Below, one piece after another: positions 3 through 25,466 of a stretch of 29,544 bases of DNA (its first letter is position 1; each line of letters starts with the position of its first letter). A program made the translations under genes and the position numbers. The notes beneath the pieces are model-generated. The model worked only from the letters and a program-made list of their open reading frames with translations, searched no databases and was not told the DNA's origin. The DNA is taken from positions 1 to 29,544 of the IMG/VR virus record IMGVR_UViG_3300042691_017783. One strand, written 5' to 3'. Source of the stretch: a virus.

Positions 3-1439
3 GATGCCGGTGGAAAATCTCCATTTAATTATGGGCAGAAGGTGGATATAATGACGAAAATGTTTGATATACCAGAAGACATGATTGTCAAAGTAAAGAA
101 TCCATACAAAGCGGATGAATTTAAAGAAACGTTACCAGAAAATACTCCAGTTGTATTTGCCTTATCCGAAAAAGATAAAGATCGTATGGTTGGTAAGTAT
201 TTTAAACCGTATGATCCATCGTCTGACCTAAAAGGATATTCAGAGGAAGGTTATTATTGGATAAAACCACAAATTGAAGGCAAACAGGAATTATCTGGTA
301 CACAAATACGCAGCGCATTTGGAAATCCAAACATTGCAGATGAAGCCAAGCAAGAATTTTTTACGTTAGTATATGGTAAATTTGATAGAGATATGTTTGA
401 TATGATTACCAAAGTGTCTACACAAGCAGAAGAAGATCGTAATATTACTGCTACTCATAAAGAAAAGAAAAAATCAGATGATGTGGAGGATACTGAACCA
501 CAACAACCTGTATCTCCACAAAACGTATCTATTGCAAAGTCTGTATTGAATAGAAGAATAAAAAATCCTGACACTGGTAGAATGATTTATGTAGCATCTG
601 CGTTGAAGCTTGATCCAAAAGCAGATGCACATAAAGCTGCAAGAGCTATGGTGGACTCGGCAATTCGTGCAGGTAAAAAACAAACTGCTGAAACTGTGCA
701 ATATGTCACCGAAAACACTGCATCCGATGACCTTAAGTTATATGTATTTGTGCGTCAGTTTAATGACGAAGAACTTGCCGATGAAGTTCGTGAATATTTT
801 GAAAATGAAGATTTATTCAAACCATTTCCAGACTTGGCGAAGAGTGCAAATGAATTAGTTGGCATGATTAAGGATGCACCTACTGTGACGTTGGACACCG
901 ACGCATTAAAAAATTTATTACACAGCAATGTTCCGGAAATAATGCGGAGTTCTGCTCCTAGAAAAATTATACAAAAGATTGCGGAAAAAGATAAGAAATC
1001 AGTTTCCGATTTATTGCATGCTGTGAAGAATGAAGAAGAATTACCGATGCCTGTTGTTATAAAATTCCCTAACGGCCATTTCTTATTTTCTGGAAATAAG
1101 CGACTTTCTATATTAGCGGCTACTGGAATGACAATGCCTGTGAAGTTATTGAATTATGACAAAGCACCGGCAATAAATATGGGAATGTACGGATCAACAG
1201 AACAACCAGTTAAACAAGATATAGAAGATAAGGGCAAGGCATCTGGTAAAGATATTATGAATAGAATATTACAGATGAAAATCACAAATCCAGAAACAGG
1301 AAATATGATTAAGGTTGACACTGCAATGGATTATAATAAAAATCATCCCGCCCATAAAATGGCATTAAATATGATACGTCAGCACATGCGCGGCGTTTCA
1401 ACGAGAGCCGGAATACCAAAAAACAAAAAACTATCATAA
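3..1439 (+). CDS. Multidomain protein, 5'-truncated: nucleotidyltransferase-like + NPxTG motifs + ParB-like domain
   Basis: The frame is open from base 3, so the gene starts upstream of the window. The GTG at 42 is unlikely to be the start, because the preceding codons read KSPFNYGQK, which fits the 'NPL-Y-xK-xxM' segment of phage cytidylyl/nucleotidyltransferases. Numbering from that GTG, LSGTQIR (84-90) resembles the (S/I)GTxxR motif of the same fold; the N-terminal HxGH-type motif would lie outside the window. Residues 335-372 (PVVIKFPNGHFLFSGNKRL then PVKLL) resemble the GxxRL core of ParB-like domains. NPDTG (175-179) and NPETG (416-420) each begin a 35-40 residue mini-domain, of the same kind found again in the protein at 5294-5683. 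Family reading is inference from motifs. Possible roles are nucleotide or DNA/RNA end chemistry; the substrate is unknown. Confidence 0.7.
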   Translation, partial: DAGGKSPFNYGQKVDIMTKMFDIPEDMIVKVKNPYKADEFKETLPENTPVVFALSEKDKDRMVGKYFKPYDPSSDLKGYSEEGYYWIKPQIEGKQELSGTQIRSAFGNPNIADEAKQEFFTLVYGKFDRDMFDMITKVSTQAEEDRNITATHKEKKKSDDVEDTEPQQPVSPQNVSIAKSVLNRRIKNPDTGRMIYVASALKLDPKADAHKAARAMVDSAIRAGKKQTAETVQYVTENTASDDLKLYVFVRQFNDEELADEVREYFENEDLFKPFPDLAKSANELVGMIKDAPTVTLDTDALKNLLHSNVPEIMRSSAPRKIIQKIAEKDKKSVSDLLHAVKNEEELPMPVVIKFPNGHFLFSGNKRLSILAATGMTMPVKLLNYDKAPAINMGMYGSTEQPVKQDIEDKGKASGKDIMNRILQMKITNPETGNMIKVDTAMDYNKNHPAHKMALNMIRQHMRGVSTRAGIPKNKKLS

Positions 1440-2703: not shown

Positions 2704-4278
2704 ATGACTGAATTAAAAGAACTGATAAAAAGAGAGTATGCAAAATGTGCAGCATCTCCTGAATACTTTTTATCCAGATATTGTTATATTCAACATCCGG
2801 TTCGTGGTAGAATGTTGTTTGATTTGTATCCGTACCAAAATAATGCAATTAAAGAATTTAAAACAAATCAATATAATATTGTATTAAAGGCCAGACAGCT
2901 AGGGTTTTCTACTCTAGTTGCTGGCTTTGCGTTGCATGAAATGATTTTTCATTCAGATAAAAATATTTTAGTTATTGCTACTAAACAAGAAACTGCTAAG
3001 AATCTTGTTACAAAAGTTGCGTTTATGAATAAAAATTTACCAACTTGGTTACGTGGAAAAACTGTAGAAGATAATAAGTTGTCCATGAAATTTACCAATG
3101 GATCACAAATCAAAGCTGTTGCATCTAGTAAAGATGCTGGACGATCTGAAGCATTGTCTTTATTAATTCTTGACGAGTGTGCATTCATTGACGATGCTGA
3201 AATTATTTGGACTGCCGCATCATCAACATTGTCAACTGGTGGTAATGCCATATTAATTTCTACTCCAAATGGTATGGGAAATTTTTTCCATAAAATGTGG
3301 CAGGGTGCTGTAGACAAAACTAATGGATTTAATCCTATTTTATTGGATTGGAAAGTGCATCCTGAACGCGATCAAGCGTGGCGAGATAGGCAAACGGATA
3401 TTCTTGGTTCTGTAAATGCAGCTCAAGAACACGATGCATCATTTATCTTTTCTGGTAATCCTGTTATTGATGCAGAGGTACTAGAATTTTATAAAAACAC
3501 ATATATAATTGATCCAATATCTAAACAAGGATTCGACGGCAATTTGTGGATTTGGGAGTATCCAGATCCATCAAAAACGTATATCGCAGCGGCTGACGTT
3601 GCAAGAGGAGACGGTGAAGATTATAGTACGATTCATATAATAGATGCAGAATCATCTGCACAGGTTGCGGAATATAAAGGTAAAATTACAACGAAAGATT
3701 TTGGAAATCTTATGGTATCGTTGGCAACACAATACAACGATGCTTTACTAATACCAGACAATTCTTCTATTGGCTGGAGTGCAATCCAGCAGGTCATAGA
3801 TCGTGGATATAAGAATTTATTTTATATGTCAGCAGACTTGCATTACATAGATGTTGAAAATCAAATGGTTAATAAAAATGTTATATCAGAAAAAAATCTA
3901 AAACCAGGATTCACCATCAGTATGAGAACTCGTCCTCTCATTATTGAAAAGATACAAAGTTATATGAGAGAAAATTCTATTATAATACGCTCATCCAGAA
4001 CACTTTCTGAATTTGAAACGTTTATTTGGAAAAACGGTAGAGCGGAGGCATTACAGGGATATAATGACGATTTGGTTATGGCGCTTGGCATAGGTCTATG
4101 GGTGCGAGATACCGCTCTGCGGTTACGACAACAAGGTATAGAATTGACCAAGTTTTCAATCGACCACACCAGTTTTAATTCCATGCCGTTTGTTAATACT
4201 AATAATAGAAAACAAAATGACTATGAAATGCAAATTGGTCATAATCAAATAGAAGATATTCGCTGGTTACTTTCGTAA
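2704..4278 (+). CDS. terL: Terminase large subunit (gp17-like packaging ATPase/nuclease)
   Basis: 524 aa motor that translocates DNA into the prohead and cuts concatemers. ATPase motifs in order: Walker A KARQLGFST (62-70), Walker B LLILDE (153-158) and coupling motif STPNG (186-190). RNase H-like nuclease motifs: Asp298 in AAADVARGDGEDYS, Asp352 in IPDNSSIGW and Asp455/Asp456 in GYNDDLVMAL, which matches the third acidic motif of T4 gp17. Somewhat shorter than T4 gp17 (610 aa), with less sequence before the Walker A. AGAGGA precedes the ATG. No small terminase (gp16) is recognisable beside it. Unlike in T4, the next core gene is the portal, not the sheath. Confidence 0.97.
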   Translation: MTELKELIKREYAKCAASPEYFLSRYCYIQHPVRGRMLFDLYPYQNNAIKEFKTNQYNIVLKARQLGFSTLVAGFALHEMIFHSDKNILVIATKQETAKNLVTKVAFMNKNLPTWLRGKTVEDNKLSMKFTNGSQIKAVASSKDAGRSEALSLLILDECAFIDDAEIIWTAASSTLSTGGNAILISTPNGMGNFFHKMWQGAVDKTNGFNPILLDWKVHPERDQAWRDRQTDILGSVNAAQEHDASFIFSGNPVIDAEVLEFYKNTYIIDPISKQGFDGNLWIWEYPDPSKTYIAAADVARGDGEDYSTIHIIDAESSAQVAEYKGKITTKDFGNLMVSLATQYNDALLIPDNSSIGWSAIQQVIDRGYKNLFYMSADLHYIDVENQMVNKNVISEKNLKPGFTISMRTRPLIIEKIQSYMRENSIIIRSSRTLSEFETFIWKNGRAEALQGYNDDLVMALGIGLWVRDTALRLRQQGIELTKFSIDHTSFNSMPFVNTNNRKQNDYEMQIGHNQIEDIRWLLS

Positions 4279-4320: not shown

Positions 4321-4683
4321 ATGAAGCGTAGTGAATTAGAAGAAATTATACGTGAAGAGATAGAGAAGTACTTGCAAGAAAATTCTGTTTCTCTTGAAGA
4401 AAAATATGATTCTGATGGAACTGTTCCTCGCGTACATAATAGAACAATGACACCTGCACAGATCAAAAAAAGAGAAAGTATCGGTAAAAAGATACTTAAG
4501 GCAATTAGTAATGGCGATGATAAGAAAAATCCACTACGCCGCGCATTTATTCGTTGGGCTGCAAAAAATGATAAGCCAATCACATCGGAAAAGACTATGA
4601 ATTCATATGCATGGGCAATGGCAAGTGATTATGCTATCAAAGGCAAGACGTTTGCTACAAAACGATCACGAAAGAAACAATAA
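4321..4683 (+). CDS. Small conserved phage protein, IREEI-type N-terminus
   Basis: 120 aa. The ATG at 4321 is preferred over an upstream in-frame TTG because GGAGA sits 5 bases before it and overlaps the TTG. The N-terminal helix carries the motif IIREEIEKYLQE, with an L-x-E at 18-20 that would fit a gp21-type cleavage site. The middle contains MTPAQIKKRESIGKKIL, a basic segment I have seen in other phage hypotheticals. The C-terminus is very basic (KRSRKKQ), which would suit nucleic-acid contact inside the head. First gene of the small-protein cluster between terminase and portal, behind a candidate promoter. Function unknown. Confidence 0.75.
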   Translation: MKRSELEEIIREEIEKYLQENSVSLEEKYDSDGTVPRVHNRTMTPAQIKKRESIGKKILKAISNGDDKKNPLRRAFIRWAAKNDKPITSEKTMNSYAWAMASDYAIKGKTFATKRSRKKQ

Positions 4684-4701
4684 TTTACACGGAGATAACC
4701 C

Positions 4702-5292
4702 ATGATACGTTTAATTGGCTTAGTGGATCTTAAAAATATTGCACCGTTCAACACGGAAGCATTAGATCCAGTTGGTAAGGAAGATTCTGACATTGATAAC
4801 GATGGTGATGTAGATTCTTCTGACAAATATTTGAAAAATCGCAGAAATGCAGTTGAAAAAAATCTCAAAAAAGAATCAACTACATTGAAAGAAGAGAACC
4901 CAGATAATCCAGATATTGTTGATGATCACGAAGGTCAGATGGCAAAAGCAGATTTGATGTCTATTCACAAAAAAGCTGCTGAGATTTATAATATGCTCGG
5001 TGACAATGAAGAGTTGGAAGGCTGGGTACAAGCTAAGATTACAAAAGCAGCAGAGTATATCAATGCAATTCATAACAATTTGAGTTATGAAAAGTCTAGC
5101 CCAGGATCATTGGGTTCTGGTGATGGTACACCAGCAGACAAGACCATGGGAGTTGACGAAGTTACCTTAAGCGAAAAGGCTCCTGCCGGTTGGGAAAAGA
5201 CTGTGAAGTCTATGAAAAAGCACAAAGAAATTGATAATCCATTTGCCCTAGCCCAGTATATGAAAAAGAAGGGCTATACTCCACATAAGTAA
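4702..5292 (+). CDS. Small phage protein with EF-hand/dockerin-like Ca2+ loop
   Basis: 196 aa, preceded by GGAGATAACCC. Residues 30-41 ([12 protein letters not shown]) place Asp at loop positions 1, 3, 5 and 12, as in an EF-hand or dockerin calcium site, followed by KYLKNRR. The middle, around [19 protein letters not shown], is a helical segment I associate with other T4-like small proteins. The C-terminal [20 protein letters not shown] with KKKGYTPHK is another widespread phage tail piece. So it looks like three mini-modules in series. Calcium binding is inference; the function is unknown. The next gene starts one base after the stop. Confidence 0.75.
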
Positions 5293-5293
5293 T

Positions 5294-5683
5294 ATGAAAA
5301 ATCCAATTTCATTACTAGAAACCCAGTTAAATAATTTGATTGCAGAAATTGAAGAGCTTTTATCGGAAGATATAACGCCATCAGTAACCAATCCAAAAAC
5401 TGGAAAGCAAATAAAAGCAACCAGTGCCTTGAAACCAGATCATCCGGCATATGCTGCTGCCAAGAGATTGTTGCAAGGTAAAAAGATGAGTGCTGGGCAA
5501 CGCCGTGGTTTGAAAAAGCTTGCAACAGCAGCTCTGTCAAAGACCAGACCAAAGAAAGGACCATCCAAAATGAGTAAGGCGACAAAAAGTCCAGCTCAGG
5601 CTGCATTTAAAAAACAACGTGGTATGGAAAGAAAGGGAGCTAAGTCAGATACAGCATACTCTGTATTTGGACCAGATAACTGA
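5294..5683 (+). CDS. Small basic protein with NPxTG mini-domain
   Basis: 129 aa, starting one base after the preceding stop with no SD, so probably translationally coupled. The N-terminus MKNPISLLE ends in an L-x-E (7-9). Residues about 33-65 contain NPKTGKQIKATSALKPDHPA, the same mini-domain as the two copies in the protein at 3-1439. The second half is Lys/Arg-rich (RPKKGPSKMSK, KKQRGMERKG) and probably nucleic-acid-binding or disordered. Function not recognised. The basic composition would suit a DNA-associated virion protein. Confidence 0.7.
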   Translation: MKNPISLLETQLNNLIAEIEELLSEDITPSVTNPKTGKQIKATSALKPDHPAYAAAKRLLQGKKMSAGQRRGLKKLATAALSKTRPKKGPSKMSKATKSPAQAAFKKQRGMERKGAKSDTAYSVFGPDN

Positions 5684-5690
5684 GATTGTT

Positions 5691-6053
5691 ATGGAATCAA
5701 TTGCAAAGTTTTTAGGAACGCTTATGTCTAGTAGGACACAAGCACATGTATTCCACCTACAAACACCGTCATATGCCGCACATAAAGCATTGGATGAGTA
5801 TTATAGTGGAATAGTAGATTTAATAGATTCATATGCAGAAATGTCTCAGGGTAGATATGGTATCATTCGTGGATACCAAATGTCTGCACAGATATTAGAA
5901 GATGATTCTGCATTAAAATATTTTATGGGATTGCAAAAGTTTGTAGATGGAATTCGTACACAATTGCCACAAGATGGTGAACTGAACAATACAGTTGATG
6001 AAGTATCTGGTTTAATTTCGTCAACTATTTACAAGTTGAAATTTTTGAGATAA
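5691..6053 (+). CDS. Helical protein, DUF5856-like (ferritin-like helical fold suspected)
   Basis: 120 aa from the ATG at 5691, just after the previous TGA. A longer in-frame version starting at 5619 would overlap the previous gene by 65 bases and is less likely. The all-helical sequence, with MSSRTQAHVFHLQTPSYAAH, the DLIDSYAEMSQGRYGIIRGY stretch and the C-terminal STIYKLKFLR, matches my memory of the phage family DUF5856. Paired His/Glu/Asp positions along helices are reminiscent of Dps/ferritin-like bundles, but I cannot confirm a metal site. Weak SD, so probably coupled to the upstream gene. Role unknown. Confidence 0.65.
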   Translation: MESIAKFLGTLMSSRTQAHVFHLQTPSYAAHKALDEYYSGIVDLIDSYAEMSQGRYGIIRGYQMSAQILEDDSALKYFMGLQKFVDGIRTQLPQDGELNNTVDEVSGLISSTIYKLKFLR

Positions 6054-6055
6054 GT

Positions 6056-6643
6056 ATGCCAAATAAATCTAACGAACAGTCATTTAGTGCTCCACAACCG
6101 GATTTTTCTAGGTATGATAGTTACAAAACTACCGGATTCAAAGGAGCAGAATTAGATGTCAAGGGATATAATCCACGAGGAGTAGTAGATCCAGAAGAAC
6201 AATGTACGGATTGTATTGATGAAAAAGCACCTTGTTGGAAAGGATACGAGCAATATGGTACTAAGATGAAGAATGGTAAGGAAGTACCAAACTGCATACC
6301 TGTAAAGGAAGCGCAGCAATATGCTATAGACGATGTATATGATTTTTGTCCACGTTGTTTAGCAAAAGAAATACTTCGTGCAAAGAAGGGACCATTAGAG
6401 GAAGCAGAATATCAAGGTCGCAAAGTTCCCCTCGGTAAGCCTATGCGTGGCGATGTAAAGAAATTTAAAGTATTCGTTAAAGATCCATCGACCGGAAATG
6501 TGAAAAAAGTAAATTTTGGTGATCCGAATATGAAAATTAAGAAATCCAATCCGGCTAGAAGAAGAAGTTTTAGAGCAAGACATAATTGTGATAGTCCTGG
6601 TCCAAGAACAAAAGCAAGATATTGGTCATGTAGGAAGTGGTAA
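6056..6643 (+). CDS. Cys-rich modular phage protein
   Basis: 195 aa. It starts 3 bases after the preceding stop without an SD, so coupling is likely. First module: CTDCIDEKAPCWKGYEQYG followed by KNGKEVPNC, a Cys-rich piece common in phage structural-region proteins. Next is a short CPRC (YDFCPRCLAKEIL), completing a likely zinc site. Last module: DPSTGNVKKVNFGDPNMKIK, then RRRSFRARHNCD, ending in ARYWSCRKW, a distinctive C-terminal domain I recall from many T4-like phages. The arrangement looks like mosaic assembly of mini-domains. Function unknown. Confidence 0.75.
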   Translation: MPNKSNEQSFSAPQPDFSRYDSYKTTGFKGAELDVKGYNPRGVVDPEEQCTDCIDEKAPCWKGYEQYGTKMKNGKEVPNCIPVKEAQQYAIDDVYDFCPRCLAKEILRAKKGPLEEAEYQGRKVPLGKPMRGDVKKFKVFVKDPSTGNVKKVNFGDPNMKIKKSNPARRRSFRARHNCDSPGPRTKARYWSCRKW

Positions 6644-6644
6644 A

Positions 6645-6926
6645 ATGATACGTTTGTTAAAACTTCTAGAAGATATTGATAAAAAAGATACTCCATATAT
6701 GAGCGGTGATACTTATATAGGAAAAGAAGATGGTAAGCGCATATATGATTATATGGGCTACGACTTTGATTTTTCTGAGTTTCTTGTCGGTATGAACGTG
6801 GAACTGGAGCATCAAGACGTAACTGATGGAAGCTTAATAAAAACGGCAATGATCGCCGCATCCCATTTAAGAGAAAATCCAAAATATTATACTTTGCTAA
6901 AAAAGTATGTGGAGAAATCAAAATGA
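6645..6926 (+). CDS. DUF5661-like small protein
   Basis: 93 aa from the ATG at 6645, immediately after the previous TAA; an upstream in-frame start at 6588 would overlap that gene and is rejected. The C-terminal half (FLVGMNVELEHQDVTDG, KTAMIAASHLRENPKYYTLL) fits the 'GMxxExEH...A..HLxExPxYYxxL' signature of DUF5661 from memory. The N-terminus MIRLLKLLE ends in L-x-E (7-9). The stop overlaps the next ATG (ATGA). No biochemical role is known to me. Confidence 0.7.
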   Translation: MIRLLKLLEDIDKKDTPYMSGDTYIGKEDGKRIYDYMGYDFDFSEFLVGMNVELEHQDVTDGSLIKTAMIAASHLRENPKYYTLLKKYVEKSK

Positions 6927-7261
6927 TTAGAATGAAAGATATTCTTTTGGAAAATATAAAAGAAAATCGTGTGAGCTTAGTGAAGCTACAAACTATTTTA
7001 GAAAAAATAGTGCCCGAATTAACAGATACACAAACAAAAGGCTTGATGGAAATATTTAGTGAATTGACCATGCTTTCATCTGCCATGAATTCTTTACCAT
7101 TTACAGTAAAAGAATATAAGTTAAATGAATGGCAATTAGTTGTTGCTTCATTTAACACAAAGCTTTTGGAAATGAAACAAGAAGTTGGTAAAATTTCTGA
7201 AAATGACAAGATAAATTGCAATTCATTAATGAAAGCAATTGATGAATTATTACTTCAATAA
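6923..7261 (+). CDS. Small helical protein, unknown
   Basis: 112 aa, translationally coupled to the upstream gene through an ATGA overlap. Predominantly helical by eye, with no Cys, TM or known motif. The N-terminus MIRMKDILLE again ends in an L-x-E (8-10). Last of the seven small proteins before the portal gene. Family not recognised; a small virion or assembly factor is possible from context only. Confidence 0.65.
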   Translation: MIRMKDILLENIKENRVSLVKLQTILEKIVPELTDTQTKGLMEIFSELTMLSSAMNSLPFTVKEYKLNEWQLVVASFNTKLLEMKQEVGKISENDKINCNSLMKAIDELLLQ

Positions 7262-7272
7262 CGTGAGGAGTT

Positions 7273-9168
7273 ATGGCAGATACTAGTATTTATGGTAGAC
7301 TGAAGAAGCTGTTTTCTACTAACACAGTAGTTAGAAATATTGGTGGAAAAAAACTTCGTATCGCAGATACAGATCAAATACAAAGCTTTGTAAACAGACG
7401 AGGTGTTGATAGATATCATAGAGTTTATCAATCACAAACCGGTGGATATGGGTCGCAACATGGAAGATATGAGGCAGCAGCAGCGTTTCAAGGCGCAAGA
7501 TTGCAGTTGTTTCGTGATTATGACATGATGGACAACGATCCTATAATTTGCTCTGTGTTAGATATTTATGCTGATGAATCTACTGTAAAGGATGAATTTG
7601 GTAAAATACTTAGTATCAAAACCGATAATACTCAAGTTCAAGAAATATTACAAAATTTGTTTTATGATATCCTAAACGTAGAATTTAATCTCTGGCCGTG
7701 GATACGAAACATGGCAAAATACGGAGATTTTTTCTTACATTTAGACATTCATCCGGAATACGGAATAATAAATGCAATACCGTTGTCTGTTTATGAGACT
7801 ATACGTGTTGAAGGAGAAGATCCAAACAATCCATTTAGTGTAAGTTTTAAGATTGAAAATGATTTCCTAAATTTAGGAAAGAAAGATTTTGATAATTATG
7901 AGGTTGCACACTTCCGTTTGTTAGCAGATACGAATTTTCTACCATACGGAAAGGCAATGATAGAAGGTGGGCGGCGCGTTTGGAAGCAACTTCAACTCAT
8001 GGAAGATGCGATGTTAGTACATCGTATCATGAGAGCACCAGATAAGCGCAAATTCAAGATTGATATTGGAAATATCCCACCGAATGAAATTGAAACCTTC
8101 ATGAACAGAATTATCGACCGTATGAAAAAGACGCCGTTGGTCGATCCAAAAACAGGCGATTATAATCTTCGCTACAACATGATGAATATCACCGAAGATT
8201 TCTACCTACCAGTTCGTGGAAAAGAAAGTGGCACGGATATTGAAACGATGCAAGGATTGCAATTCAATGCGATTGAAGACATTGAATACCTTCGTAAGAA
8301 ATTATTAGCCGCATTCAAAGTACCGAAATCATTTATTGGCTACGAAGAAGATATCAATGGTAAAGCAACACTCGCCGCACAAGATGTACGATTTGCACGA
8401 ACAATTGAACGTATTCAACGTATTGTCGTTTCTGAATTAACAAAAATTGCGATTGTGCATCTATATGTGCAAGGATTTACTGATGAAACTCTTGTTAATT
8501 TTGAATTATCATTGACAAATCCATCTACGTTAGCGGAACAAGAAAAAATAAACATTTGGAAAGAAAAATTTGCACTAGCACAACAAATGACAGGTGGGCA
8601 AGCACAATTACTTTCACAAGATTGGGTATATAACAACATTCTTGAAATGTCAGATGAAGATGTCGTTGATGAACGTAGAAAAATTGAAGAAGATATCAAA
8701 CGTGTTCAACAACAGATGGCAGCGGCACAGCCAGACCTTGGAAATATGGAGCAGGGAGGAGAACAACCAGCAGTTTCTCCGGAAACGGGTGAATCTCCTG
8801 AAGAAACAGAAGCTCCATCCGATGAAACTGAACCGGGTGATGAACAAGAAGCGCAAATTGACACCGTAGATAAGATTTTACAGAGTTTGGAAGACATTCC
8901 AGACGAAGATGAAGAAGATTTAGAAGAATCGTTGGTGAAAAAGAAAGGTGGTAGACCAAGGGAAGGATTAAAGTTTGCAACAGATCGCCATCCTCTCGGT
9001 AGAGATCCTCTTGGTCATAAAGAAAACAAAAAAATGACTAAGCGGACATCGTTATCATTTGAATCTGCCGATTTTATAAGGAAATTGTCTGATAAGTTTA
9101 CAAATCAGTCACAATACAAAAAAATTATATCTGAAAGTATCTCAAATGATGAAAAAACAGAATGTTAA
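7273..9168 (+). CDS. 20: Portal vertex protein (gp20-like)
   Basis: 631 aa, behind a strong GAGGAG SD. Portal proteins form the dodecameric ring on which the prohead initiates, DNA enters and the neck attaches. T4 gp20 family signatures include LYDPIIC-like DNDPIICSVLDIYADEST near 90, YGKAMIEGGRRVWKQL, IMRAPDKRKFKIDIGN, MQGLQFNAIEDIEYLRKKLL and VPKSFIGYEEDINGKATLA. The core resembles T4 gp20 (524 aa), but a C-terminal extension of about 140 residues follows. That extension is Gln/Pro/Glu-rich (about 480-560), strongly acidic, then basic with GGRPREGLKFATDRHPLG and a final Lys-rich tail. The tail may be disordered and could interact with scaffold or terminase (inference). Confidence 0.97.
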   Translation: MADTSIYGRLKKLFSTNTVVRNIGGKKLRIADTDQIQSFVNRRGVDRYHRVYQSQTGGYGSQHGRYEAAAAFQGARLQLFRDYDMMDNDPIICSVLDIYADESTVKDEFGKILSIKTDNTQVQEILQNLFYDILNVEFNLWPWIRNMAKYGDFFLHLDIHPEYGIINAIPLSVYETIRVEGEDPNNPFSVSFKIENDFLNLGKKDFDNYEVAHFRLLADTNFLPYGKAMIEGGRRVWKQLQLMEDAMLVHRIMRAPDKRKFKIDIGNIPPNEIETFMNRIIDRMKKTPLVDPKTGDYNLRYNMMNITEDFYLPVRGKESGTDIETMQGLQFNAIEDIEYLRKKLLAAFKVPKSFIGYEEDINGKATLAAQDVRFARTIERIQRIVVSELTKIAIVHLYVQGFTDETLVNFELSLTNPSTLAEQEKINIWKEKFALAQQMTGGQAQLLSQDWVYNNILEMSDEDVVDERRKIEEDIKRVQQQMAAAQPDLGNMEQGGEQPAVSPETGESPEETEAPSDETEPGDEQEAQIDTVDKILQSLEDIPDEDEEDLEESLVKKKGGRPREGLKFATDRHPLGRDPLGHKENKKMTKRTSLSFESADFIRKLSDKFTNQSQYKKIISESISNDEKTEC

Positions 9169-9182
9169 ACTTAGTTGATATA

Positions 9183-9190
9183 TATTTACT
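9183..9190 (+). promoter_or_regulatory. Candidate late promoter motif (variant TATTTACT)
   Basis: GATATATATTTACTTATATATGC lies in the 62-base gap after the portal gene, about 40 bases before the next ATG. It is the poorest match of the intergenic set, and the AT repeat could equally form a weak AU hairpin. Confidence 0.3.
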
Positions 9191-9230
9191 TATATATGCT
9201 AGTTGTTTACTCGTTTAATACGGATAACAT

Positions 9231-10103
9231 ATGAATATTAAGCACAACAAAATTAAAAATACAGGCATCCTTTTTGAACTTTTAGTTAGAAAGGTGGCAT
9301 CCGATGTCTTGGATGGAAAATCAGATAGCTTCGCAGTGAAACTTATGCGAGAGCACTTCCATTCAAAGACTGAATTAGGGAAAGAACTGCAATTATATCG
9401 TTCTTTCTTCAATTCTAACATCTTATCTGAAGCAAAATCATTTAATATGCTTGATTTGATTCTTGAAAAGCGTAAGACATTGAATGAAAAACTACTCACT
9501 GCTCAAAAATTTCTTTTGATAAAAGAAATTAAACAGCATTGTGACATAAAACAGTTCATGTCTGGTAGAGTTCCATCTTATAAAGTATATGCATCTGTAT
9601 ATAAATTATTTGAATCTGTTACAAGAACAGATGACGATTCAATTTTTAATATAAATGATATAGTTTCTTCTAGATTTGTCGTAGTAGAGCATCTAAAAGG
9701 CGAACTGAAAGAAGAACAGATTATAAAAGACTCAAATTATTCTCAGATACTAAAAAACCAACCGGAAGAAATACGATATTTGTCTTATAAAATTTTATTA
9801 GAGAAATTTAATGACAAGTATAGCGTATTTAACGATAAGCAAAAGATACTGCTTAGAGAATATATAAATAATGGCACAGATGTAGATACATTTAGTAAGT
9901 TTATTACAAAAGAATCTACAGATTTGATAAATTCCATACAGTTAAACTCTCATAAAATCAAAGACAACGTTACCAAGATAAAAATTAACGAAGTTTTGTC
10001 TCAATTAAAAAATATTAAGAGCAAATCGTCTGTAAAAAGCAACCATATAACTGCGTTGTTGATTGCATACCAAATTTCCCACGAACTAGATAAGCTGAGT
10101 TAA
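9231..10103 (+). CDS. Conserved T4-like head-region hypothetical protein
   Basis: 290 aa, largely helical. The N-terminus NTGILFELLVRKVASDVLDG followed by KTELGKELQLY is a signature I recall from hypotheticals beside portal and protease genes in aquatic T4-like phages. There is no clear SD before the ATG, only GGATAAC. The next gene begins 4 bases after the stop. It has no T4 name that I can assign; position 67/68 in T4 (prohead core proteins) lies in a comparable place between gp20 and gp21, but those are much smaller. A role in prohead assembly is a contextual guess. Confidence 0.75.
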   Translation: MNIKHNKIKNTGILFELLVRKVASDVLDGKSDSFAVKLMREHFHSKTELGKELQLYRSFFNSNILSEAKSFNMLDLILEKRKTLNEKLLTAQKFLLIKEIKQHCDIKQFMSGRVPSYKVYASVYKLFESVTRTDDDSIFNINDIVSSRFVVVEHLKGELKEEQIIKDSNYSQILKNQPEEIRYLSYKILLEKFNDKYSVFNDKQKILLREYINNGTDVDTFSKFITKESTDLINSIQLNSHKIKDNVTKIKINEVLSQLKNIKSKSSVKSNHITALLIAYQISHELDKLS

Positions 10104-10107
10104 TTTT

Positions 10108-10563
10108 ATGGAAAAAATGGAACGTCTTAGAGAAATCATTCGTAAAGAAATTGTTAATGAAATAAGTACAACGGGTGGCGTTGCTGGATATTTGACTCCA
10201 AACGCATTTGTTGGAGATAAGCATGACAATAAGAAGCACATGGATTCTTTGGTAAAGAGAATTGGATACACGATAACGTCCAGAGGAAAGTCCGATCTCA
10301 AAAAGGGCGACACGCTTTCAGAAAATTATTATCAATATAGAAATGACACTACAAAATTACCTCATCAAAAAATAGGTAATGCTATATCTGAGCTTAATCG
10401 TCAGTTAAAACTCATAGAGCGCGCATTGCGAATGAATAGCAGATTGAAAAAGGAATATGGAGTTTCTAATGAAAAATTATGGAAACGAACCATGAATCAA
10501 ATGACAAAGTTAGAAGGTAAACTGGTTGAATTGGCCGGTAGACTTCGTGAAATGAGAGGATAA
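10108..10563 (+). CDS. Conserved 'STTGGVAGY' phage protein
   Basis: 151 aa. The N-terminal charged helix (MERLREIIRKEI) resembles the IREEI-type N-terminus of the protein at 4321. It is followed by EISTTGGVAGYLTPNAFVG, a motif I know as recurrent in marine T4-like phages. The C-terminal half is a helical, probably coiled-coil segment (IGNAISELNRQLKLIERALR to KLEGKLVELAGRLREM). ATG 10108 and an internal ATG at 10117 are both possible; neither has an SD. It sits between the portal-proximal hypothetical and the prohead protease, so a prohead-core or scaffold-associated role is plausible but unproven. Confidence 0.75.
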   Translation: MEKMERLREIIRKEIVNEISTTGGVAGYLTPNAFVGDKHDNKKHMDSLVKRIGYTITSRGKSDLKKGDTLSENYYQYRNDTTKLPHQKIGNAISELNRQLKLIERALRMNSRLKKEYGVSNEKLWKRTMNQMTKLEGKLVELAGRLREMRG

Positions 10564-10565
10564 TC

Positions 10566-11150
10566 ATGGGATTGCTATGTGAATTTACCGAATTGCAATA
10601 CAACAGAGATTTATTGTCTGAATCGTTAGATAGCAATAAGCCATTGGTATTGAGAAACGTAGTGCTTCAGCGTGCAAATGCAAAAAATCAAAATGGAAGA
10701 GTGTATCCTAGAGATATATTGATGCGCGAAGCTCAAATATATAAGAAAAACTTTGTTGATTCCAGAAGAGCGGTAGGAGAACTAGATCATCCAGAAAGTC
10801 CTGTTGTTAATTTGAAGAATGTTTGTTGCAACATTGTTGGTTTATGGACAGATGGTGACGATGTTCGTGGGGACATTGAAATATTAACAACTCCAACTGG
10901 AAATATAGTAAAAGAGCTTATAAAAAATAATATACGTCTTGGTGTAAGCTCGCGTGGAATGGGATCGGTTCGTCAGATGGGAGAAAATACAGTTGAAGTG
11001 CAAGAAGATTTCTCGCTTATCTGCTTTGATATCGTTAGTAACCCTTCTACGATTGGCGCATTCATAACAGAAAATACACAGCAGCAAACCGTTTCTAAAT
11101 ATGATGTGGTTGATAAATTAATTCACGATTTCTTGAGTGAACTTAAGTAA
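10566..11150 (+). CDS. 21: Prohead core protease (gp21-like)
   Basis: 194 aa serine protease that matures the prohead by cutting scaffold, capsid and internal proteins. RNVVLQRANAKNQNGRVYPR (30-49) is the family N-terminal signature. The catalytic His is His75 in GELDHPES, and the catalytic Ser lies in GVSSRGMGS (Ser128 or Ser129). ICFDIVSNPSTIGAF (152-166) completes the fold, which is related to herpesvirus assemblin. Length is close to T4 gp21 (212 aa). AGAGGA lies before the ATG, and the gene follows the STTGGVAGY protein by 2 bases. Known family specificity is after (L/I)-x-E. Confidence 0.95.
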   Translation: MGLLCEFTELQYNRDLLSESLDSNKPLVLRNVVLQRANAKNQNGRVYPRDILMREAQIYKKNFVDSRRAVGELDHPESPVVNLKNVCCNIVGLWTDGDDVRGDIEILTTPTGNIVKELIKNNIRLGVSSRGMGSVRQMGENTVEVQEDFSLICFDIVSNPSTIGAFITENTQQQTVSKYDVVDKLIHDFLSELK

Positions 11151-11151
11151 T

Positions 11152-11505
11152 ATGAACACAGTCAATACAAAAATTTTGGAATCAATAATACAATATCATA
11201 ATGAACAGGGAAATGCATTCCCGTCATACATAAAATTATTGGCTTCAAAAATATCAGAATCAGATGCGAAGGCGTATTTACAAAATGAAAATTTTGATAT
11301 CAATAATATATTGAAACCATTGAAATTAAAATCTATTGTCGAACACAGTAGACCGATGATTATTGATGACCATGTAGTGGATGTATTTACTGCAAAATTG
11401 CTATTAACTACATCTGATAAATTATCAACCGATAATAAAAAGAAATTTTTTAACGAATCTATTGCAACTATGGTAGCACTATCATATAAAATGTTAACAT
11501 ACTAA
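11152..11505 (+). CDS. Small helical protein between gp21 and bS21, unknown
   Basis: 117 aa from the ATG at 11152, one base after the gp21 stop; an in-frame GTG at 11137 inside gp21 is an alternative that adds 5 residues. No SD, so probably coupled to gp21. Helical, Asn/Lys/Ile-rich, without motifs I recognise; KNKKKFFNES-like charged segments lie near the C-terminus. It intervenes between protease and scaffold, where T4 has none. Confidence 0.65.
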   Translation: MNTVNTKILESIIQYHNEQGNAFPSYIKLLASKISESDAKAYLQNENFDINNILKPLKLKSIVEHSRPMIIDDHVVDVFTAKLLLTTSDKLSTDNKKKFFNESIATMVALSYKMLTY

Positions 11506-11517
11506 TTTGGGGGTATA

Positions 11518-11733
11518 ATGTACGTAAAGGTAAATGAGGGTAAAGACGAGTTACAAAAAGCATTGAAGCAATTTACGAAATTGGTAAAGAAATCTGAGTT
11601 GATTCAAGAACTTAAAAACAGAAAGCATTTTTTAAAGCCATCAAAAAAGAAAATCTTTAAACAACAGGAAGCTTTACGTAGACGAAAGCGAGAAGAGCGC
11701 CGAGTTGCTAGACAAAAAAAATACGACAATTGA
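11518..11733 (+). CDS. rpsU: Phage-encoded ribosomal protein bS21 homologue
   Basis: 71 aa, the length of bacterial S21. It follows the S21 pattern: short beta start (YVKVNEG), ALKQF, then KKSELIQELKNRKHFLKPS, then a Lys/Arg-rich C-terminal helix (EALRRRKREERRVARQKK). In bacteria bS21 sits at the 30S platform near the anti-SD and is needed for initiation on many mRNAs. Phage-borne bS21 genes are an established phenomenon. The SD (GGGGG, 6 bases before the ATG) is strong. It ends the gp21 transcription unit, followed by a hairpin at 11771. Replacing or adding to host S21 to favour phage late mRNAs is inference. Confidence 0.85.
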   Translation: MYVKVNEGKDELQKALKQFTKLVKKSELIQELKNRKHFLKPSKKKIFKQQEALRRRKREERRVARQKKYDN

Positions 11734-11754
11734 TGTTTTTCAAAACAAACAATA

Positions 11755-11762
11755 TATTTATA
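11755..11762 (+). promoter_or_regulatory. Candidate late promoter motif (TATTTATA)
   Basis: Exact TATTTATA core within AATATATTTATATTAG, 21 bases after the bS21 stop. Unusually, a hairpin follows 8 bases downstream, so a transcript starting here would meet it at once. Confidence 0.35.
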
Positions 11763-11770
11763 TTAGTAAA

Positions 11771-11794
11771 ACACCAATTTAATAATATTGGTGT
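11771..11794 (+). terminator. Putative terminator after bS21
   Basis: ACACCAAT (11771-11778) pairs with ATTGGTGT (11787-11794), an 8-bp stem with an 8-base AT loop, followed by TATTATTTATAT, which is U-rich but interrupted. It probably ends the portal/protease/bS21 unit. Moderate strength. Confidence 0.55.
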
Positions 11795-11797
11795 TAT

Positions 11798-11805
11798 TAT
11801 TTATA
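11798..11805 (+). promoter_or_regulatory. Candidate late promoter motif for scaffold/capsid unit (TATTTATA)
   Basis: Exact TATTTATA directly after the hairpin at 11771-11794, 53 bases before the scaffold ATG. The longer leader holds a second inverted repeat (11814-11833). Confidence 0.45.
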
Positions 11806-11813
11806 TCAAAAAT

Positions 11814-11833
11814 AACAGATGCTAATATCTGTT
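11814..11833 (+). repeat. Inverted repeat in the scaffold-gene leader
   Basis: AACAGAT (11814-11820) and ATCTGTT (11827-11833) form a 7-bp stem with a 6-base loop, followed by TTGTTAAT. It stands 10 bases before the SD AGGGGAG of the scaffold gene. It could be an mRNA-stabilising 5' hairpin or a weak attenuator. Confidence 0.4.
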
Positions 11834-11858
11834 TTGTTAATACAGGGGAGTAACCTTT

Positions 11859-12923
11859 ATGGCAGAAATAACAAATAAGCTTTTAAGAGAAGCTATTGCA
11901 GACGCAGAAGCAGTTCGTGAAACTGCTGTTGCTAATGCAAAAATGGTTTTAGAAGAAGCCATCACACCACAGATCCGTGACATGATTGCTCGTCGCCTTC
12001 GTGTAGAAGCAGAAGGAGCAGTTGCACACGAATCTGCAACGGAAAAGCCATTAGAAGATGCTGATGCTGAACATTCAGCAGAAACACCACAAGATACATC
12101 AACTATTGGTGGTGCTGAAAACAAGGAACCATCAGATGACGCATTTGACACATCTGCTATTGGCGATGGTGGAGAAAACAAAGAAGATAGTCATACAGAT
12201 TGGTATGATGATTGGTCAGAAAGTGACTTCGACCTTGATGAAGTTATCAAGGAATTAGAAGAAGACATTGCTGCTTTGTCAGAAACAGAGCACGAAGAAG
12301 GTGAAGAAAAGCATGCAGGTGAAGGCGAACCAGGGCACGAAAAGAAGGAAACTGGTGACGAAGAACATGCTGAAATGAAGAAAGAAGGCGAAGTCGCTGG
12401 TCATGAAGACGACGACGAAGCAGACAAAGAAATTGATCTTGAAGAAATTCTTGCAGAACTTGACGCCGAAGACGATGAAGACGAACTTGCTCCAGAAAAA
12501 CATTCTGGTCAGGAAGAAAAGAAAGTAATGGCTGCTGAACTTGCTAGAATCAAGAACGACTTAGCTCAGTATCGGGAGGCTGTAAATACTCTCCGTGAGC
12601 GTTTACAAGAAGTAAATCTTTTAAATGCAAAATTACTCTTCACTAACAAAATGTTCCGTAAGGAAGGTTTAAACAACGAACAAAAGGTTCGCATCGTAGA
12701 ATCGTTTGATCGCGCAACAACTGTTCGTGAAGTGAAGCTGGTCTACACTGCATTGGTTGAAAATCTTTCAACTGCAGCTAAGACGTTCGCTGCATCACGC
12801 AAGAAAGTAGTTGCAGAGGGTCTTGCTTCAAAGGCAACCCCAAGCACAGCACCAAAGGCGGAAGTTATTGTTGAAAATACAGTAGCAAAGCGCCTCCAAG
12901 AACTCGCAGGAATTATTTCATAA
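11859..12923 (+). CDS. 22: Prohead core scaffold protein (gp22-like)
   Basis: 354 aa, behind AGGGGAG. Forms the internal core on which capsid protein assembles and is degraded by the gp21 protease. The N-terminal helix (LLREAIADAEAVRETAVANA) is followed by a very acidic, Glu/Asp/His-rich region (about 60-220), then a coiled coil (ELARIKNDLAQYREAVNTLR). Last is the family signature VNLLNAKLLFTNKMFRKEG and ESFDRATTVREVKLVYTALV. The C-terminus KRLQELAGII is also typical. Longer than T4 gp22 (269 aa), largely from the acidic insert. Several L-x-E sites (such as LRE 9-11) would serve the protease. The capsid gene follows 18 bases later. Confidence 0.93.
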   Translation: MAEITNKLLREAIADAEAVRETAVANAKMVLEEAITPQIRDMIARRLRVEAEGAVAHESATEKPLEDADAEHSAETPQDTSTIGGAENKEPSDDAFDTSAIGDGGENKEDSHTDWYDDWSESDFDLDEVIKELEEDIAALSETEHEEGEEKHAGEGEPGHEKKETGDEEHAEMKKEGEVAGHEDDDEADKEIDLEEILAELDAEDDEDELAPEKHSGQEEKKVMAAELARIKNDLAQYREAVNTLRERLQEVNLLNAKLLFTNKMFRKEGLNNEQKVRIVESFDRATTVREVKLVYTALVENLSTAAKTFAASRKKVVAEGLASKATPSTAPKAEVIVENTVAKRLQELAGIIS

Positions 12924-12941
12924 TATAGGAGATAAATAAAT

Positions 12942-14516
12942 ATGTCAGATGTACAATCATTTATCAATGAAGCTAACCACGCACACGAAGCTATCATTGC
13001 ACAAACCCGTAAGCTTTCGGGAAAGTGGGAACGTTCAGGTCTTCTTGAAGGCTTGAAGGGATATGAGAAGCAAGGTATGGCTGTTATGCTTGAAAACCAA
13101 GCAAAGCAACTCCTTGACGAAAGTAGTAAGACGAATTCAGCCGGTTCAGCCGGTGAAAACTGGGCAGGTGTTGCACTTCCATTAGTCCGTAAGGTTTTCG
13201 GAAGTATTGCAAGTAAGAACTTCGTTTCTGTACAACCAATGAATCTTCCAGCCGGTCTTGTGTTCTACATGGACTTCAAGTACGGTAACACTGTAAATGG
13301 AAAGACAGCAGGACAGTCACTTTATGGTAGTGCATTAAGCTCACCATACACATCATTCGGTAACCAAACTTCAGGTGGTCTATATGGCCCAGGTGCATTT
13401 GGATACACTGTAAATGATGCAAGTGTAACTGGCTTAACAGCAGCAACTGCATCTGTAGCATTTGCAGATGTCAACTTCAACGCTGATTTTGTTACAACTG
13501 GCTCGTACAGAAAGTTCACAGTAACAGGTTCAGCATTCACGAATGCAGACTTCTTAGCATCACGCGCATTCATTCCAAGTGGATCTGGTGCAAACTTTGG
13601 CACATTAGTTCTTCCTGAGTTCACAAAGTACGATGGACAAAACTTGACATTCGTTGTTAACACAACAGCAAATGCAGTATTGACAAGTGTACAATACGTC
13701 AAGCAACCGGTTGACACAGATCGTGGTGACTTTGAAGATCGTGATGGTTCAACAGATTTGCAAATTCCACAAATTGATTTGGAACTCAAGAGTGAAACAA
13801 TTGTTGCTAAGACACGTAAGTTGAAGGCCGTATGGTCACCAGAACTTGCACAAGACTTGAATGCATACCACAGTGTTGATGCGGAAGCAGAATTAACAGC
13901 AATGTTAAGTGATTACATCGCAACAGAAGTTGACCTTGAAATTCTTGACATGTTAATTCAAGCTGCACCATCAGTAAACACTGAATACTGGTCAGCAGAA
14001 ATTGGTTCAGTATGGAACGGTACATCGTTTGGAACTCCAACCTTCTCAGGAACGGCATGGACCAACCAAACATGGTTCCAAACTCTTGGTCAGAAGATGC
14101 AAAAGGTCAGTAACAAGATTCACCAAGCAACAATGCGCGGTGGTGCTAACTTCGCAGTAGTTTCACCAACAGTTGCAACAATTCTTGAAACAATCCCTGG
14201 CTTCCAAGCTGGTACAGATGGTGACAAGATGGAGTTTGCAGGTGGCGTTACAAAGGTTGGATCATTCGTTAACCGCTTCACAATCTACAAGAACCCATAC
14301 ATGACAGAAAATGTAATGCTCATGGGCTTCCGTGGTACACAATTCTTGGAAACTGGTGCAGTATATGCTCCATACATTCCATTAATCATGACACCACTTG
14401 TGTATGATCCACAAAACTTCACACCACGTAGAGGTGTAATGACACGTTACGCTAAGAAGATCGTTCGTCCGGAATTCTTCGGCAAGATCTACATCGACAA
14501 GCTTAACTTAGTCTAA
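12942..14516 (+). CDS. 23: Major capsid protein (gp23-like)
   Basis: 524 aa, nearly the size of T4 gp23 (521). HK97-fold shell subunit. Signatures: SGKWERSGLLEGL, GENWAGVALPLVRKVFGSI, LKAVWSPELAQDLNAYHSVD, TMRGGANFAVVSPTVATIL, YAPYIPLIMTPLVYDPQNF and a C-terminus typical of the family (KKIVRPEFFGKIYIDKL). The T4 prohead protease removes about 65 N-terminal residues; LLDE at 57-60 followed by Ser is the matching (L/I)-x-E candidate here (inference). A Ser/Thr/Gly-rich stretch at about 125-250 is probably the insertion domain. The SD is TAGGAG. Codons favour TTC, AAC and AAG by eye, unlike the small genes, as expected for a very abundant product. Confidence 0.97.
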   Translation: MSDVQSFINEANHAHEAIIAQTRKLSGKWERSGLLEGLKGYEKQGMAVMLENQAKQLLDESSKTNSAGSAGENWAGVALPLVRKVFGSIASKNFVSVQPMNLPAGLVFYMDFKYGNTVNGKTAGQSLYGSALSSPYTSFGNQTSGGLYGPGAFGYTVNDASVTGLTAATASVAFADVNFNADFVTTGSYRKFTVTGSAFTNADFLASRAFIPSGSGANFGTLVLPEFTKYDGQNLTFVVNTTANAVLTSVQYVKQPVDTDRGDFEDRDGSTDLQIPQIDLELKSETIVAKTRKLKAVWSPELAQDLNAYHSVDAEAELTAMLSDYIATEVDLEILDMLIQAAPSVNTEYWSAEIGSVWNGTSFGTPTFSGTAWTNQTWFQTLGQKMQKVSNKIHQATMRGGANFAVVSPTVATILETIPGFQAGTDGDKMEFAGGVTKVGSFVNRFTIYKNPYMTENVMLMGFRGTQFLETGAVYAPYIPLIMTPLVYDPQNFTPRRGVMTRYAKKIVRPEFFGKIYIDKLNLV

Positions 14517-14545
14517 TACCGATACTGAGTAGTGATAAATAAATT

Positions 14546-14570
14546 GGGGTGGCGAAAGCCACCCCTTTTT
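14546..14570 (+). terminator. Strong rho-independent terminator after capsid gene
   Basis: GGGGTGGC (14546-14553), GAAA tetraloop, GCCACCCC (14558-14565), then TTTTTATTT. Perfect 8-bp GC-rich stem with a GNRA loop, 29 bases past the capsid stop. Ends the gp22-gp23 unit. Confidence 0.95.
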
Positions 14571-14606
14571 ATTTCACATAAAAATGAGTTATGTTTATTA
14601 AAATGA

Positions 14607-14614
14607 TATTTATA
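14607..14614 (+). promoter_or_regulatory. Candidate late promoter motif (TATTTATA)
   Basis: Exact TATTTATA, 25 bases before the ATG at 14640 and about 40 bases after the capsid terminator. Would drive the small protein and the gp13-14-15 genes. Confidence 0.55.
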
Positions 14615-14639
14615 TGTGTACTTTTATATGGAGAGTTGT

Positions 14640-14852
14640 ATGAATTACCTAAAATATTTACAGGAATATAGAAAAACTACATTTTCCGATTCGGTTATAG
14701 TTTTATATAAAGTTGTTGTAGATGATGTTGGTGAATTATTTAAGCAAGAAACATTATCCGATCTTGCTTTGATAGATGCGGCACAGTTAAAAGGAAAAAG
14801 TACATGGGATGAAGAAGAATTATGTGAGGCGTTGGGACTAGAACCAGTATAA
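14640..14852 (+). CDS. Small protein after capsid gene, unknown
   Basis: 70 aa. The ATG at 14640 is chosen over an in-frame GTG at 14616 because GGAGAG lies 4-5 bases before it and the GTG abuts the promoter-like motif. The N-terminus MNYLKYLQEYRK resembles the short capsid-targeting peptides of T4 internal proteins (M-K-T-Y-Q-E-F-I-x-E type), with L-x-E at residues 7-9. The remainder is acidic, with the C-terminal WDEEELCEALGLEPV. Placed between capsid and neck genes. An internal head protein or minor decoration is a speculation from the N-terminus and position. Confidence 0.65.
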   Translation: MNYLKYLQEYRKTTFSDSVIVLYKVVVDDVGELFKQETLSDLALIDAAQLKGKSTWDEEELCEALGLEPV

Positions 14853-22769: not shown

Positions 22770-22808
22770 TACACTTAAAAATAGAAGTGGTAAGTTTACT
22801 GAATGGAC

Positions 22809-22816
22809 TATTTATA
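22809..22816 (+). promoter_or_regulatory. Candidate late promoter motif (TATTTATA)
   Basis: GGACTATTTATAATAG with an exact TATTTATA, 28 bases before the ATG at 22845. No convincing terminator precedes it; only a weak CACTT/AAGTG hairpin lies at 22772-22789. Confidence 0.5.
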
Positions 22817-22844
22817 ATAGTATTTATTTGATAAAAAGGAACAT

Positions 22845-25457: not shown

Positions 25458-25466
25458 GAATAGCAC

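Follow-up and report, generated by a model that had tools for sequence, protein, structure and literature searches.

The window (the whole 29.5-kb virus fragment that was analysed) comes from a T4-like myovirus and carries its late region. Genes for neck, sheath and tube come after that of the major capsid protein. Several proteins of this region begin with a short segment ending in L-x-E, and related sites occur within others. In the features below, + denotes the strand and a slash marks a predicted or aligned cut.

2704-4278, terminase gene
4321-4380, +, 20-residue N-terminal helix MKRSELEEIIREEIEKYLQE of a basic 120-residue protein, predicted cut after E20
4702-5292, +, protein with a calcium-site-like DxDNDGDVD segment and a C-terminal module C (APAGWEKTV...) after LSE-158
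5294-5320, +, MKNPISLLE of a basic 129-residue protein with net charge +16, a weak case from sequence only
6056-6643, +, multi-module basic protein, predicted cuts after IDE-56, VKE-85 and LEE-116
6404-6640, +, module B (AEYQGR...CRKW), 79 residues, net charge +18, predicted release by the cut after LEE-116
6645-6671, +, tag MIRLLKLLE before the DUF5661 domain of gene 6645-6926, predicted cut after E9
6923-6952, +, tag MIRMKDILLE of the 112-residue protein encoded at 6923-7261, predicted cut after E10
7273-9168, portal gene (phrog_213)
10108-10161, +, N-terminus of a 151-residue protein between portal and protease, conserved candidate cut after VNE-18
10566-11150, +, gp21-type prohead protease (Peptidase_S77; PF03420, E=2e-24; phrog_207, E=3e-49)
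11859-12923, +, scaffold gene (gp22-like)
11859-11891, +, scaffold N-terminus, LRE-11 followed by A
12942-14516, +, major capsid protein gene
13113-13121, +, candidate maturation site LDE-60, followed by S, in the major capsid protein, aligned with VSE/A and ISE/A in phages immuto and Mel-JY01
14640-14666, +, MNYLKYLQE of a 70-residue protein, a weak case on the same basis as 5294

In capsid protein sequence, identity is about 50-56% with Flavobacterium phage immuto and Microcystis phage Mel-JY01, and 36% with Rhodothermus phage RM378. The protease scores 86.6 bits against PF03420 (cut-off 27), and its candidate catalytic residues, H75 (GELDHPES) and S128/S129 (SSRG), are invariant among three homologues compared. 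It has a candidate self-site, LSE-19 followed by S, and an N-terminal [IL]xE/[SA] near residue 19 is present in 79 of 92 homologues. Judged from its sequence, this site probably serves self-processing, which has been suggested for T4 gp21 (PMC9026906). The T4 gp23 counterpart of the capsid site is LTE/A. Candidate L/I-x-E substrates in the same genome are the capsid protein (LDE/S), the protease (LSE/S) and the scaffold (LRE/A).

A gene for a 71-residue ribosomal protein S21-like product (11518-11733, phrog_21469) has the protease on one side and the scaffold on the other, as it does in Mel-JY01. Inside the small-gene cluster, an untagged DUF5856 protein (5691-6053) carries the PHROG name 'starvation-inducible transcriptional regulator', which T4 rI.-1 also bears. 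An unnamed repeated domain, NP[DKE]TG(x)2I...SALK...HPA(x)nA, has two copies (564 and 1287) in the nucleotidyltransferase-like first gene of the window (3-1439) and one copy (5390) in gene 5294-5683. Farther downstream, at 21027-29543, a fibre-type repeat with a segment like LPSGVVSSSAQINTGSFSGSF occurs in many copies across three large proteins.

The N-terminal motif and its association with the protease

The earlier note had pointed out seven L-x-E motifs, and all were found at the positions given: MKNPISLLE (5294), MIRLLKLLE (6645), MIRMKDILLE (6923), MNYLKYLQE (14640), ...YLQE at residues 18-20 (4321), LRE at 7-9 (10108) and LRE at 9-11 of the scaffold (11859). The internal sites in 4702 and 6056 are absent from its list. 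ATG is the start codon of all seven genes, and a start-choosing gene caller, whose choices agree with 28 of 30 annotated starts in Mel-JY01, selects exactly these. Those of 6645 and 14640 are slightly less sure because both lie within longer GTG-initiated open reading frames, and that of 5294 because a clear Shine-Dalgarno sequence is absent.

With internal positions of the proteins themselves as background, 5 of the 29 window genes have an LxE whose E is residue 9 or 10, where 0.55 would be expected (P=2e-4). For residues 9-11 the count is 6 (0.83 expected; P=1.4e-4), and for residues 7-11 it is 7 (1.36 expected; P=3e-4). A strict T4-style pattern requires hydrophobic residues at 4 and at 7/8 and an E at 9-11; its residues 4, 7, 8 and 10 were taken from the T4 literature, and it was refined partly on the same data. 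It fits 6 of the 29 genes (P=7e-6), the background rate being 1.6%. Two of these matches are outside the earlier list, FTE in the protease and INE in the capsid protein. Hydrophobic residues are M4, I7 and L8 in 6923, and L4 and L7 in 6645; neither 5294, which has P at 4, nor the scaffold conforms. The same pattern fits 9 of 237 T4 genes, including ipII, ipIII, alt and gp24.

The 6923 tag keeps [LIV]xE in 34 of 35 distinct homologous N-termini, where E at P1 is invariant, P3 is L, I or V, and P2 is variable (3.2 bits). In the 4321 family, [LIF]xE at residue 20 is present in 7 of 8 homologues. The body of the 6645 protein is a DUF5661 domain (PF18905, E=1.7e-11), and its proposed tag has equivalents such as MIRLRDLLTE in 11 of 36 homologues, but DUF5661 is untagged in many relatives, which mostly start MKVSRKIS... 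or the like. Because these relatives are mostly untagged from the start of the protein, the tag was apparently gained or lost as a unit. For 5294 and 14640 the motif is where it was said to be, but homologues are absent: the search with 5294 returned none beyond one identical contig, and that with 14640 returned none. Chance is possible for single genes such as these two.

The 10108 protein lies at the position of T4 gp67/gp68. Its orthologues keep [LIVM]xE just before [IM][ST]TTGxVAGY, whereas LRE-9, which had been put forward as a tag, is often LRA, LRQ or IKQ; VNE-18 is therefore the better candidate. The scaffold site is largely kept (40 of 52 distinct homologues, the remainder having mostly Q, D or K at P1), but this is expected of any cleaved scaffold and need not denote a targeting tag. 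The suggestion that much of the small-gene cluster would encode injected proteins was too broad, as 5691, 9231 and 11518 are without a convincing tag.

Because counts from one window are small, relatives were needed for a test. Eighty contigs with a related gp21-type prohead protease, analysed by start-aware gene calling, provided 346 non-redundant proteins shorter than 250 residues. In 35 of these, with 6.4 expected, the E of an LxE is residue 9 or 10, and none of 2000 shuffles exceeded 16; the count falls to 5 at residue 11. With a 5.5-fold enrichment at residues 9-10, LxE is by far the strongest of thirteen triplets. LxN, the highest control, reaches 3.2-fold, and ExL (2.4) and LxK (2.0) are mildly enriched too; LxD (1.9), LxR (1.2), LxQ (0.9), AxE (0.8), KxE (0.5) and SxE (0) have no peak of this kind.

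In protease-less phage loci, LxE at residues 9-10 is found in 1 of 179 proteins (3.4 expected) versus the 35 of 346 (Fisher P=5e-6), a comparison in which composition could contribute and lineage is not fully separable from protease presence, the control phages being of other lineages and of a smaller-genome group. PF03420 was found in none of ten control-phage contigs checked. Five long contigs carry modules or tags yet no gp21. On checking, gp23 proved absent from them as well, which means that they do not include the head genes.

The earlier note had proposed comparing the frequency of the motif with that in non-structural genes. In nine whole or long contigs of relatives and Mel-JY01, 21 of 219 genes within 10 kb of the protease are tagged, against 35 of 1355 elsewhere (odds ratio 4.0, P=6e-6), which bears out the enrichment. 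Some tagged genes are far from the head genes, and these outlying matches are often in clusters of their own. Tagged genes also lie side by side (14 pairs, 4.8 expected); BLAST detected no similarity between the bodies of adjacent tagged genes in four gene clusters.

Sites at module boundaries

Module B forms the C-terminal end of gene 6056-6643 and matches PF19058 (weakly) and phrog_7595. Its contexts were found by profile; a first regular expression was discarded because it caught terminase (QVAEYKG). Among 92 non-redundant upstream contexts, 83 are fused. In these, P1 is E in 83 of 83 and P3 is L, I, V or M in 81, and the entropy at P2 and P4-P8 is 3.5-4.1 bits. Module B begins with Met exactly at P1 in 8 of the 92 contexts. 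In 11 complete phages examined, module B is free-standing in all seven that lack PF03420, with Met exactly at P1 in five, and stands behind [LM]xE in all four that have PF03420. The other two of these seven, CRP-2 and CRP-3, have a free-standing module B with diverged N-termini. Since the start Met of free-standing copies occupies P1, a cut after E would yield the same N-terminus as that of the free-standing protein after Met removal. In one contig a T4-like tag is fused straight onto the module (MKTYREFVTE/AEYQGR), and phage C48C1 has MKKFKQYIDE...LTE/AEYQGK. For the cultivated phage immuto the exact predicted neo-N-terminus is GEYRGKDVPLNKPK, and for Pelagibacter phage HTVC008M, also cultivated, it is AEFQGKK, behind LEE; the free-standing module constitutes a natural experiment.

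In immuto, a partial copy of module B's own start lies just upstream of the predicted site (MYEGQKVPLDLPM...LDE/GEYRGKDVPLNKPK), and Melnitz likewise has a partial copy upstream of its site (TYNGEHVPLDCPMMESEYQGKDVELNKPK). They look as if they were a decoy or a duplication remnant. A structure model of module B alone has a pLDDT of 80, and neither a PDB sequence search nor Foldseek found relatives. The model of the whole 6056 protein (mean pLDDT 47) was not usable.

Module C of the 4702 protein is preceded by E in 23 of 23 non-redundant contexts and by a hydrophobic P3 in 20 of 23, a set that includes no free-standing control. Three further modules were rejected as boundary tests, and the ambiguous results for F and A count against a cut-site reading. 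Module F (DLRKWF) has the E also in copies starting MNE/DL, so that site and module residue are indistinguishable. Module A (CWxGY) has [LIVMF]xE directly upstream in only 17 of 51 contexts, and the tag before module H (CPxATQ) ends several residues upstream, without a fixed junction.

Probable capsid-targeting propeptides and alternative explanations

According to PMC9026906 (Mullaney and Black 1996 cited therein), T4 IPI, IPII, IPIII and Alt carry a capsid targeting sequence that is cut by gp21. The cut follows L/I-x-E, ten residues of IPIII are enough for targeting, and residues 4 and 7 act in targeting and residues 8 and 10 in processing (PMC9026906). The tags described here have the consensus M-[IKR]-[KRST]-[LF]-x-x-[LIFY]-[LI]-x-E (for example MIKLKDLLSE, MIRLTDILIE and MKTFAEYLTE). 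They resemble the T4 sequence in comprising about ten N-terminal residues, in having hydrophobic positions 4, 7 and 8 and E at 10, and in standing before proteins that are not related to one another, with a homologue of gp21 encoded in the genome. They differ in reading MI[KR]LxxLLxE, whereas T4 has MKTYQEFIAE. Also, many more families are tagged here, with enzymatic cargo, and the candidate sites bound internal modules as well. The capsid-targeting sequence and gp21 are long established in T4; the clade, its differing consensus, the wide range of proposed cargo and the role of the site as a module boundary are new.

In phiKZ and SPN3US, head-protein propeptides are cut by gp175 and gp245 at S/A-x-E or A-x-E (PMC9026906, PMC5694885). 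There, a diverged relative of gp21 processes many internal ejection proteins by cutting after x-E, much as is predicted here, but several of the propeptides exceed 100 residues and P3 is S or A, whereas it is L, I, V or M here. Polyvalent proteins that phages package and inject (PMC5512222) are similar in being multi-domain, in combining ADP-ribosyltransferase with other effector domains and in lying near packaging genes. In contrast, those proteins are long multidomain chains, and the modules described here are small, stand behind candidate prohead-protease sites and are predicted to be released separately.

The tags are quite probably T4-type capsid-targeting propeptides that the gp21-type prohead protease of the phage itself cuts at their LxE ends. 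The sequences show the presence of the protease, the positional motif, the link between the two, conservation, and the match between sites and module boundaries. By analogy with T4, we infer that tagged proteins bind the core and are cut, packaged and injected. The hydrophobic face of the roughly ten-residue N-terminal helix would bind the prohead scaffold core. The protease, active once the prohead has closed, would then cut after the E of [LIVM]-x-E and free the cargo from the core. Where a protein has several modules, as do those of 6056-6643 and 4702-5292, this cut would release folded basic modules. The trimmed cargo would remain with the packaged DNA and exit with it at infection. The data suggest that tagged small proteins are loaded into the head, trimmed there and, on this analogy, probably brought into the bacterium together with the DNA. 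Literature searches found no published virion proteomes of the clade. The earlier note had read its motifs as candidate capsid-targeting peptides, and this reading is partly supported: the protease-linked enrichment, the gp21-type protease and the T4 register favour it, but several of the cases it listed fail or are weak.

Alternately, the N-terminal helix might direct proteins to a membrane, the tail or another phage structure, with LxE being part of the helix and not a cut site. The peptide is indeed short and an amphipathic helix, and some tagged genes are distant from the head genes. However, E is invariant, P3 is only L, I or V and P2 is free, sites of this type also lie inside proteins, at the edges of modules, where there is no N-terminal helix, and the motif goes with the presence of gp21, so this explanation is unlikely. 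Descent of the tagged genes from one duplicated gene, which would make the N-terminus a fossil, would fit their frequent adjacency. It is quite improbable, because the mature parts lack mutual BLAST similarity and belong to differing Pfam families, and because variants such as MKTFxEYLxE and MLLRELFE are unlike in most residues yet keep the pattern. Chance deserves the least credence: LxE is frequent in helical, E-rich N-termini, and LxN, ExL and LxK are mildly enriched at residues 9-10, but neither shuffles nor internal positions approach the 5.5-fold excess of LxE, and the control phages have no peak. The case made earlier from position and recurrence thus holds under statistics, and the doubt raised with it, that LxE is common by chance, is right in principle only.

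For module B, the E might be a residue of the module proper instead of the end of a protease site, since A, E, Y and G, which follow the junction, are conserved too. This is unlikely, because the Met of free-standing copies falls exactly at the E position and because conservation jumps past P2 to P3, as in a protease site.

If the tags are capsid-targeting propeptides, a ten-residue pattern beside a gp21 gene would pick out, in a large group of aquatic T4-like phages, the hypothetical proteins that travel in the head and enter the host as infection begins. It would also assign function classes to many unannotated genes and show where tests for early effectors should begin. A broader proposal, to which we give even chances, is that the prohead protease is a general cargo processor. 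Any gene could then be enrolled by a tag of about ten codons, and multi-domain precursors would be cut at [LIVM]xE inside the prohead and their modules co-injected, including ones that are free-standing in other phages.

Predicted cargo among the tagged proteins

Alignment of 73 tagged proteins gives the consensus MIKLxxLLxE, with almost nothing in common beyond the tag. They match 17 Pfam families, including cytidylyltransferase-like, NUDIX, zeta-toxin-like/AAA kinase, ADP-ribosyltransferase of polyvalent proteins, Mom, CCA-adding-like nucleotidyltransferase, superoxide dismutase, DUF5661 and DUF5872. Two of the 73 have a match in a PHROG of virion structural proteins. Phages package and inject effectors of such kinds (PMC5512222). 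The ADP-ribosyltransferase and similar members are of kinds seen among injected proteins, which by analogy would favour injection. Superoxide dismutase and the CCA-adding-like enzyme are not obvious injected effectors and count against it.

Short tags are also frequent on phage nucleotidyltransferases with the motif GRFNPPxxGH (seven loci, with examples such as MLLRELFE/, MYIREVVE/ and MNELSNYLVE), and these N-termini suggest that this enzyme is packaged too. In T4 itself, gene 61.1 (NC_000866, 18966-19130), of unknown function, encodes an N-terminus, MKTFKEFIKE, that fits the capsid-targeting pattern and has MKTFKEF in common with IPI. From this resemblance, its product may be an unrecognised internal protein.
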